Shown here piece by piece: positions 29,725 through 35,321 of a stretch of DNA of 64,000 bases. The notes beneath the pieces were generated by a model. That model was not told the origin of the DNA and ran no database searches. It saw only the letters and a program-made list of their open reading frames with translations. This DNA comes from Iodidimonas sp. SYSU 1G8. GTDB taxonomy: Bacteria; Pseudomonadota; Alphaproteobacteria; SMXS01. The stretch covers positions 372,001 through 436,000 of the forward strand of contig NZ_JBBYXJ010000001.1 of the NCBI RefSeq assembly GCF_039655775.1. The letters are read 5' to 3'. Within the stretch, counting starts at the first letter, position 1; the number at the start of each line of letters is the position of its first letter. The translations under genes were made by a program, and so were the position numbers.

Positions 29725-30738
29725 ATGCTGAAGCACGTAGTGAACGGCGTCATTTTTGCGTCCTTGTTGGCTCTGCCAGCCTGCGGCGGCGGATCAGGCG
29801 TCTCGCCGACACCGACGCCTACGCCTGTACCGATGCCTACGCCTACGCCTACGCCTGTACCGACGCCTACGCCCGTACCGACGCCAACCCCCACTCCGAC
29901 ACCAACACCGACGCCCACTCCGACGCCTACGCCCACGCCGACAAATGACTCCTTATCTAACCTGACAATAGATCAGAAATTCTCGGTCCTTTCGGTTGAA
30001 TTGAACATGGGCATTACAGCCCAGGGGAGAGCGTTTTCACCGGTTAGAAACATCGAAGGCTTCAACGAAAATAATTCAGTTACCTACGACGTCGAAACGG
30101 ACAGTTTCAGGCTTCGTATTGCGAATGCCTTGACCAGCTTAGACGAAACCTTCCTGCCCACGGATATCGATCCGCGAAGCGACGCAAGCTTGACCGTTTA
30201 TGAAGGCGCCGGCGGGGATCGAATGTATGTGATGCTCAACGCTCAAGAGGCGATCCTGAACCTAAACTATGTGACCTTCGGGAACTGGATCGACACAACC
30301 GGCGATAACAACGATCTCGCCACAGGCTACGTGGTGTTCGGTGTGCGGACGCCGGTGTCCGCGATGCCTGGCAGCGGGACGGCGAGTTACGCGGGACAGA
30401 CGGCCGGAACCATGGTCGATGCCAAGGGCAACGTCTACACGGTAAGCGGCTTTGGCACTTTAACAGCGAATTTCACCGCCGGCACAGTGAATGGCGATTT
30501 CAACAGAATGGGGGCATTGGCAGTTCAGACAGCTACCGTTGTTCCTTGGCGCGATTTCACTACCACCGCGGACATTAGCGGAAGCAGCTTCACCGGTTCG
30601 GCGGCTACGAAGGACGGCAAACTGACGGGAACCACGCGAGGCGGCTTCTTCGGGCCGGTCGCGGAGGAGATTGGCGCCGTCTGGACTCTCAGCGGGCCAG
30701 GCGAGAACGCAACTGGCGCATTCGTAGGCAAGAAGTGA
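29725..30738 (+). CDS. TbpB-like surface lipoprotein with Thr-Pro repeat linker (copy 1)
   Basis: A 337-residue probable cargo of the adjacent Slam protein. The lipobox is LALPAC, with the lipidated Cys20, then GGGSG. A Thr-Pro linker (residues 28-73) extends it from the membrane. The rest is the handle and barrel of the transferrin-binding-protein-like domain: YVTFGNW, RTPVSAMPGSGTASYAG, LTANFTAGTVNGDF, GGFFGP, and GAFVGKK at the end. The true ligand could be haem, iron protein or something else. It is first in a four-gene operon. The downstream gene begins about eight bases after its stop. A nearly identical signal peptide and domain plan occurs in the gene at 34278. Confidence 0.82.
   Translation: MLKHVVNGVIFASLLALPACGGGSGVSPTPTPTPVPMPTPTPTPVPTPTPVPTPTPTPTPTPTPTPTPTPTPTNDSLSNLTIDQKFSVLSVELNMGITAQGRAFSPVRNIEGFNENNSVTYDVETDSFRLRIANALTSLDETFLPTDIDPRSDASLTVYEGAGGDRMYVMLNAQEAILNLNYVTFGNWIDTTGDNNDLATGYVVFGVRTPVSAMPGSGTASYAGQTAGTMVDAKGNVYTVSGFGTLTANFTAGTVNGDFNRMGALAVQTATVVPWRDFTTTADISGSSFTGSAATKDGKLTGTTRGGFFGPVAEEIGAVWTLSGPGENATGAFVGKK
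29806..29943 (+). repeat. Imperfect hexanucleotide repeat coding Thr-Pro linker 1
   Basis: 23 codon pairs of mainly Thr-Pro with a few Val-Pro and Met-Pro, encoded by ACGCCT-, ACACCG- and ACGCCC-type units. Copy changes keep the frame and would alter linker length. Confidence 0.9.
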
Positions 30739-30746
30739 GGCCGAAA

Positions 30747-34263: not shown

Positions 34264-34277
34264 TATCGAGGACCAGC

Positions 34278-35321
34278 ATGCTCAAGACCGTTGTGAATGG
34301 AATGATTTTCGCGTCCCTGCTGGCGCTGCCCGCCTGCGGCGGCGGCACCAGCGTGACACCGACGCCCACCCCGGTGCCGACGCCCACGCCGACACCGGCT
34401 CCCACGCCTACGCCGGCTCCGACACCAACTCCGACGCCCACGCCGACGCCCACGCCCACGCCTACGCCTACGCCGACTCCTACGCCTACGCCGACACCGA
34501 CACCGACACCGACACCGACACCGACACCGACACCGACACCGACGAATGCGTCACTGACAGGCCTCGTCGTGTCTCAGACGTTTCAGGCGGCGACCGGCCA
34601 GATGACCTTCATCAGCAGTGTGGGGACGAACGTCGACTTCCCCGAGGTGTCGCAGGAGAGCTTCGCCGCCGGAAACACCATTATCTACGATGCCGACAAC
34701 GACAGCTTTCGGCTGAACATCACCACGGGGCTGGCCCAGGTCGATGCGACGTTTACACCGGACGACATCCAGGAGACACCCGAAACCCGGATCATCTATT
34801 ACAGAAACGGTTCAGCCACCTTGGTGCTTGCGAAGGCTGGCGACGAGGGAACAGGTCTCAGCTATGTGACAACCGGAAACTGGAGCGTTTCGCCCTCCCT
34901 GGGCTCGGAAAGGGGATATCTGGTCTTCGGCATACCCACCTCGGATGACAGCATGCCCATTACCGGTTCCGCGACCTACGCGGGGTTAGCCGGCGGCTAT
35001 CTGGTGTCTTCAGGCCAGCAGTTCGGACTGCGGGGAACGTCGAGCCTGACGGCGGACTTCGCGTCCGGCGTGGTGAATGGCGAGCTTGTCCTGACGAAAC
35101 AGGCCCCCCTGACCCAGGAGGAGACACCCTGGAACGCCTTGAGCGTTACGGGGACCATTGCCGGAAGCGGTTTTGAAGGCACTGTCCAAAGCGGGGATGG
35201 TAAACTGACGGGGCCCGTCTCAGGCGGCTTCTTCGGGCCAGGCGCGGCTGAAACCGGCGGAAGCTGGTCGGCGGAAAGCACGATCGAGCATGCGACCGGG
35301 ACCTTCACCGGAAAACGTTAG
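34278..35321 (+). CDS. TbpB-like surface lipoprotein with Thr-Pro repeat linker (copy 2)
   Basis: A 347-residue paralogue of the gene at 29725. Its signal peptide is nearly the same, with lipobox LALPAC and lipidated Cys20. Thr-Pro linker residues 27-89 are longer than in copy 1. The barrel domain shows [40 protein letters not shown] and GTFTGKR. It starts 14 bases after the Slam stop with GAGGA upstream, so it belongs to the same transcript. A hairpin lies 22 bases after it. Ligand is unknown. Confidence 0.82.
34356..34544 (+). repeat. Thr-Pro repeat 2 with eight perfect hexamers
   Basis: Codes for a Thr-Pro linker with some Ala-Pro and Val-Pro. The 3' part, 34493-34540, is eight perfect GACACC units, a sequence prone to slippage. 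Gain or loss changes the linker by two residues per unit without a frameshift. Confidence 0.95.

Follow-up and report, generated by a model that had tools for sequence, protein, structure and literature searches.

Which proteins leave the cell through a Slam translocon, and can they include one that resembles the neighbouring clients only at its C-terminal end? The question is raised by a 64,000-nucleotide stretch of DNA (hereafter the window) from the alphaproteobacterium Iodidimonas sp. SYSU 1G8, in which four closely spaced ORFs, all on the plus strand, extend across positions 29725-35321 in the order A (lipoprotein), B (chimera), Slam and C (lipoprotein). All four were found at the coordinates assigned to them in an initial annotation made from the sequence alone. 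The features discussed below are collected in Table 1.

Table 1. Positions of the cassette, its parts and its borders in the window.
Feature	Positions	Strand	Basis or remark
Left-border SDR gene of the cassette	28550-29320	+	Adjoins the right-border SDR in the cassette-less congener G003
A: lipoprotein, PT tract, C-terminal TbpB-type barrel	29725-30738	+	PF01298, 2.2e-13
B: non-lipidated chimera with signal peptide (by eye), beta-helical passenger, autochaperone-like segment, linker and TbpB-type barrel	30735-32867	+	Likely start ATG 30747
B passenger: parallel beta-helix resembling those of type Va autotransporters	30969-32171	+	AF2 model, UpaB 6bea, NxGx[IVL] turns, BLASTP to three autotransporters
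B passenger: autochaperone-like end	31770-32168	+	3ml3 structural match; alignment with L029
B targeting barrel (predicted): TbpB/fHbp/haemophilin fold, where an autotransporter translocator would sit	32490-32861	+	AF2 (6 sequences), Foldseek, VIA
Slam / T11SS outer-membrane translocon	32902-34263	+	PF04575, PF24575
C: lipoprotein, PT tract, C-terminal TbpB-type barrel	34278-35321	+	PF01298, 2.9e-15; 44-45% identical to A
Right-border SDR gene of the cassette	35384-36499	-	Pfam adh_short_C2, 3.8e-50; empty site in G003

Layout of the locus and its recurrence in the genus

A and B overlap if B starts at GTG 30735 and are 8 bases apart if it starts at ATG 30747; gaps of 34 and 14 bases separate B from Slam and Slam from C, respectively. 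A promoter scan returned a single weak site, at 29640, scoring no higher than shuffled sequences, and the candidates from a terminator scan were likewise no better than shuffles. The third ORF had been read as a Slam protein in the initial annotation, and the Pfam scan agreed, with matches to PF04575 (SlipAM, E 2.1e-34, model positions 4-288 of 288, almost its full length) and PF24575 (TPR_Slam, E 3e-12, model positions 43-104 of 104). Its SlipAM barrel occupies 33412-34260, its terminal residue is Phe and a signal peptide is recognizable by eye. No other SlipAM match was found in the genome (3.9 Mb, two contigs). By sequence, Slam found weak matches in the PDB, mostly to TPR proteins. Among plasmids it matched 44 records, the best at 35% identity in Novosphingobium pentaromativorans, where a neighbouring protein carries one TbpB-type barrel; a tblastn search of plasmids with B found nothing.

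Lipoproteins A and C share an LPAC lipobox (read by eye), a proline-threonine (PT) tract of 44 residues in A (about 29809-29940) and 62 residues in C (about 34356-34541), and a C-terminal barrel (30364-30735 in A, 34953-35318 in C) identified as TbpB_B_D in the Pfam scan. The NCBIfam slam_lipo model NF041636 matched A at 1e-17 and 64.8 bits, under its cut-off of 80, and C likewise under the cut-off. Within the genome, the Pfam barrel model found A and C only. Both would be surface lipoproteins carried on flexible PT stalks. The profile searches suggested in the initial annotation thus gave the anticipated matches for SlipAM (DUF560) on Slam and for TbpB_B_D on A and C, but TbpB_B_D did not score the barrel of B even at E 1. 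Overall, the locus is most likely a self-contained type XI secretion (T11SS) cassette, with one Slam translocon and three predicted cargoes.

As the initial annotation had remarked, a TonB receptor is missing from the operon: Pfam found none among the four cassette genes or in 10 neighbouring ORFs of the window, 4 of which matched no family. With no such receptor found beside the operon, iron piracy was dropped as the default role. The same annotation had sought novelty in a free-living host, and here its argument is weak. Environmental Slam systems are already in print, both as T11SS subcluster 1C in environmental Sphingomonadaceae (PMC8406197) and as PT-repeat 'Sphingomonas surface proteins' (PMC12282271), and TbpB-type barrels occur in 85 of the 396 genomes examined from the order of one further genome (G251); we therefore also rejected an environmental Slam as what is new. 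As described in the consulted parts of these papers, the published systems share with ours an alphaproteobacterial Slam-family translocon and cargo, both lipidated and soluble, that carries TbpB-type barrels and proline-threonine tracts. They differ in that the Sphingomonas surface proteins have two to three handle-barrel pairs, whereas A and C have one barrel each, and in that a beta-helical passenger is not among the Sphingomonas cargo architectures described in those parts.

Two other regions of the window stood out by composition. A low-GC stretch at 39683-44071 (GC 0.52-0.55 over 40-44 kb) encodes a C5 cytosine methylase (DNA_methylase, 2.7e-34; PADLOC DrmMII model, 4.9e-89), a 448-residue ORF without Pfam match and a protein of 676 residues that has HATPase domains and in part matches a PADLOC type II restriction model (8.6e-11), and is a possible restriction-modification island. 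Similarly, GC falls to 0.48-0.54 over 16001-20000, a possible foreign island whose ORF at 18732-19670 had no Pfam or PADLOC match at the limits used.

We then compared the locus with other genomes. Out of 60 genomes searched with B, 6 were matched, the source genome included; G002, G005 and G006 carry the cassette, and G007 and G042 matched by the passenger only. In all, five chimeras are present in four genomes of one genus, each within a Slam cluster, with two of them in tandem in G002. Slam was found in the source genome (G000), G002, G005 and G006 and was absent from G001, G003 and G004. The barrels were found in the same four genomes and in none of the other three, an exact agreement across 7 genomes of the genus, of which G004 is 78% and G006 84% complete. 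This joint presence supports Slam dependence of the barrel proteins without proving it, because it comes from one genus and may reflect as few as two or three events. Gene order varies, being A-B-C-Slam in G006 as against A-B-Slam-C in the window. G003 offers an empty site (L080, around 5088-5117), where the alignments of the two border SDR genes stop 28 bases apart with no cassette between them. A dioxygenase gene follows the right-hand SDR in G001, the contig of G004 ends inside the SDR, and in G002 (L025) the match to the right-hand SDR covers only 72 residues. In G009, a relative from another genus, a Slam match (C140, 20298-21141) is divided between one frame of 405 residues and another of 69 and is perhaps a decaying copy; the profile of the B-type barrel found no match there.

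The C-terminal barrel of protein B

Protein B looks like a protein of two unlike halves, an autotransporter-type passenger joined to a T11SS targeting barrel. It has no lipobox by eye, and its hydrophobic N-terminus with an A-N-A sequence was read by eye as a signal peptide. Neither half scored above the Pfam cut-offs, and a PDB search with the sequence of B found nothing at E 10. The label 'chimera' in the initial annotation was apt, although that annotation gave the other half no identity.

Pairwise BLASTP aligned residues 509-709 of B with A (E 4e-18) and residues 544-709 with C (E 4e-15). Local alignment scores of the tail were 201 against A and 178 against C, compared with 42±8 and 45±8 for shuffled sequences; none of 1000 shuffles reached either score, so the likeness is beyond chance. 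In a full-length model of B (AF2 from 3 sequences, mean pLDDT 59.5) both ends were undefined, the barrel included. The barrel was also modelled by itself (AF2, residues 524-710) from 6 sequences, the tails of three B-type proteins and of three lipoproteins encoded in the window and L031. This model shows a barrel built of eight long strands, most of it at a pLDDT over 90. Foldseek matched it to TbpB (E 8e-7), and VIA gave Z-scores of 13.6-16.1 to fHbp, TbpB, NHBA and haemophilins. As regards a possible handle or pedestal ahead of the barrel, the BLASTP match to A begins at residue 509 of B, but this stretch is mostly below pLDDT 50. According to the model, the barrel of B has the fold of known Slam clients, despite being missed by Pfam TbpB_B_D. 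The C-terminal barrel has been proposed as the targeting domain of T11SS cargo (PMC9100927, PMC12282271). All three candidate cargoes noticed beside Slam in the initial annotation hence carry a TbpB-type barrel, by Pfam for A and C and by BLASTP and structure for B. B is like HrpC and the haemophilins, soluble T11SS cargo, in being non-lipidated and in ending in an eight-stranded barrel; it is unlike them in that the part before the barrel is far longer, ranging in the five chimeras from about 490 to about 1100 residues, and forms a beta-helix by prediction.

Does this barrel lead B to Slam? It is conceivable, but in our judgement unlikely, that only A and C are Slam cargo and that the barrel of B was repurposed, for example for binding the lipoproteins or the cell surface, with B leaving by another route or staying in the periplasm. 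The Pfam miss would agree with such a change of use, and so would the B-type barrels forming a subgroup of their own, 34-39% identical to the lipoprotein barrels. This subgroup nevertheless retains the TbpB fold and the common core residues, the presence of B tracks that of Slam exactly in the 7 genomes of the genus, and the neighbours of B in the window are A, ending 8 bases upstream, and Slam, starting 34 bases downstream; these points argue for B as a client of Slam.

We consider it far less probable that B is a minimal autotransporter, whose eight-stranded C-terminal domain would insert in the outer membrane and export its own passenger. The number of strands would allow it, and the membrane barrel Ail (2n2l, Z 13.2) is in the structural list. 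However, a profile of 12 barrels of the genus (5 B-type, 7 lipoprotein) matched TbpB (3e-12), haemophilin and NHBA in the PDB, with E-values from 3e-12 to 1e-4, and no outer-membrane barrel was seen in the best 60 of its 88 matches. In addition, all five chimeras end in -RQ, without a terminal aromatic residue, unlike Slam and the three autotransporters L028, L029 and L030 introduced below, all of which end in an aromatic.

The passenger-like N-terminal part of protein B

In the full-length model, residues of about 75-475 form a parallel beta-helix, mostly at pLDDT 70-96 from residue 125 onward. Its best structural match was the autotransporter UpaB (6bea), with Z 22.9 and 333 residues aligned at 3.5 A, followed by Ssp (Z 20.1), 7jvi (Z 19.6) and the antifreeze protein 3p4g (Z 19.0), and then by an IcsA fragment (Z 17.8) and pertactin (Z 16.6-17.7). 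Ag43 was also among the autotransporter matches, and polysaccharide lyases and tailspikes appeared up to Z 15.5. As 7jvi and 3p4g, beta-helices not known as autotransporters, ranked third and fourth, over IcsA and pertactin, the fold is not decisive alone.

The sequence offers further clues. B contains 9 NxGx[IVL] turns, compared with a mean of 1.6 and a maximum of 6 in 1000 shuffles; across the five chimeras there are 9-20, against shuffle means of 1.0-3.5. By BLASTP, the passenger matched L028, L029 and L030 outside the cassette, and all three terminate in the autotransporter domain PF03797. L028, a giant autotransporter, had no Pfam match as a whole protein and revealed PF03797 at 5e-55 in its last 430 residues. 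As beta-helix repeats have a biased composition, E-values from BLAST exaggerate homology here. In the six autotransporter loci of the source genome, covered with 1.5 kb upstream, matches were weak or absent: B matched L018 at E 0.002, and one other chimera reached 3e-5. These loci belong to contigs C1 and C2 (L017-L022), which hold seven PF03797 matches, six of them above the cut-off, in open frames of up to 3527 residues; the organism appears to have ordinary type V secretion as well. We discarded a CxP...VxC motif behind the signal peptide as a trait common to autotransporters: the pattern was derived from the chimeras and occurred in all five of them, and in no other scanned frame, L028-L030 included.

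The IcsA autochaperone (3ml3) matched residues 342-474 of the model with Z 10.7 over 127 residues, a range in which repeats can match through arrangement alone. This end of the passenger aligned with the segment just ahead of the barrel in L029, scoring 184 as against 54±9 and a maximum of 86 in 500 shuffles. The matches of this segment in L028 and L030 are internal to the passenger, away from the barrel. Whether the end is autochaperone-like is therefore uncertain.

Judging from the model, the N-terminal two thirds of B look like a type Va autotransporter passenger. With UpaB, Ssp, IcsA and Ag43, B shares the right-handed beta-helix of its model, probably a Sec-type signal (by eye) and possibly an autochaperone-like end; unlike them, it carries a TbpB-type barrel in the position of the translocator. 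Pfam found no PF03797 in B or in the four other chimeras. We regard as remoter still than self-export the idea that B is a two-partner-secretion (type Vb) exoprotein with an incidental TbpB-type domain. Such proteins share the beta-helix fold, and the secretion domains of HMW1, EtpA and HxuA are in the structural list at Z 13.7-15.1. On the other hand, the best structural match and the sequence matches are type Va passengers, and no TPS (haemagglutination-activity) domain was found in B by a Pfam scan at E 1, a profile miss being weak evidence. Finally, we practically dismiss the idea that two genes were fused artificially by an assembly error or a frameshift: nothing spoke for it, and five open chimeric frames with differing passengers and the same type of junction are present in four separate genomes.

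Conservation within the cassette was uneven. Relative to the window, identity was 72-80% for the B barrel, 76-88% for Slam and 39-45% for the aligned parts of the passenger, with 95% for a neighbouring thiolase. The tandem chimeras of G002 were identical at 366 of 400 bases in the last 400 alignment columns and at 403 of 697 compared columns in the passenger upstream, as expected if one targeting module were kept while passengers exchange or diversify. A barrel that hardly varies next to passengers that have diverged suggests a role in adhesion or recognition that is under diversification.

Distribution of the fusion and a proposed route of export

In a search of the class with a profile of the B-type barrel (A1), scoring up to 8 candidates per genome in a sample outside which G002 and G006 lie, 4 of 385 genomes were matched. 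The source genome and G005 have B-type barrels, and the matches in G050 (5.2e-5) and G294 (4.2e-4) are weak. PF01298 itself was more widespread, with matches in 37 of 385 genomes of the class at E 0.01 and in 33 of 398 genomes of the phylum at E 0.001. We inspected the best barrel loci, with 1.5 kb on each side and frames found with profile A4. Among 62 locus ids (L044-L075, L083-L112), 49 had a barrel frame and 13 did not, L047 being the lipoprotein of a congener; among 25 others (L113-L137), 18 had one and 7 did not. No second passenger fusion was present in these 67 frames, which include duplicates since several loci repeat one protein: each had at most 2 NxGx[IVL] turns, as against 9 in B, and none matched the five passengers by BLASTP. 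The long frames were mostly two- or three-barrel proteins, with a few having other N-termini. Rare fusions may exist beyond these best loci. The order to which the source genome belongs is represented in the genome set by only 10 genomes.

Barrels were also encountered in much larger frames. G351 (2.3 Mb, same class) carries several TbpB-type barrels per frame in open frames of 1715-3156 residues on contigs C20, C27, C67 and C92, as seen from 10 scored out of 117 first-look candidates; these would be giant multi-barrel proteins. Similarly, one contig of a genome from another class of the phylum (G843, C60) holds 10 scored barrels in adjoining frames of 396-1770 residues.

Taken together, we think it probable that Slam exports B, with the passenger then folding outside. 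From the domain anatomy, the operon, the recurrence in the genus and the joint presence and absence that we observed, we infer dependence on Slam, a direction of export and a role at the surface. In evolutionary terms, B would be a type Va passenger that has been deprived of its membrane barrel and has acquired a T11SS targeting barrel. In the cell, it would cross the inner membrane by Sec, remain unfolded in the periplasm, dock at Slam via the C-terminal barrel, pass the outer membrane C-terminal end first and fold outside. The autochaperone-like end would perhaps nucleate the beta-helix, as in autotransporters, several of which depend for secretion and folding on an autochaperone at the C-terminal end of the passenger (PMC5767081). 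Because it lacks a lipid anchor, B may then be released or held by lipoproteins A and C. A long and diverging beta-helix suggests a role in adhesion, in self-recognition or in evading phages or predators.

There is a precedent for a foreign effector domain on a C-terminal T11SS barrel. Pls of Haemophilus parahaemolyticus is joined to such a barrel, and its secretion was shown with the partner TepS (PMC12282271). As described there, the effector of Pls differs in being an alpha-helical repeat as in Gram-positive surface proteins, whereas that of B looks like a passenger that belongs to a different system of export across the outer membrane. Among the papers listed by the literature searches, none was recognized from its title and abstract opening as describing T11SS cargo with an autotransporter passenger. 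The translocon and the tag are already known, and the type of cargo and the exchange between secretion systems appear to be new. On balance, we lean towards type V and type XI secretion exchanging cargo, a passenger having been moved, together with its folding nucleus, to a Slam targeting barrel, with one Slam exporting a diversifying beta-helical family of up to about 1280 mature residues.

Slam has been described as an autonomous translocon that works without ATP and with periplasmic chaperones, and surface folding was proposed as the pull (PMC9090332). If our reading is true, folding outside would drive export by Slam, and the T11SS and the T5SS would have a folding-powered mechanism in common. 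B would be a natural Slam cargo with a fold well studied in autotransporter export, making the folding-pull proposal directly testable. Surveys based on PF01298 may overlook similar cargo, since both halves of B stay below the Pfam cut-offs. More broadly, the locus points to the TbpB-type barrel as a portable export tag, here joined in evolution to the cargo of another secretion system; such a tag would widen the cargo range of the T11SS and be useful for surface display.
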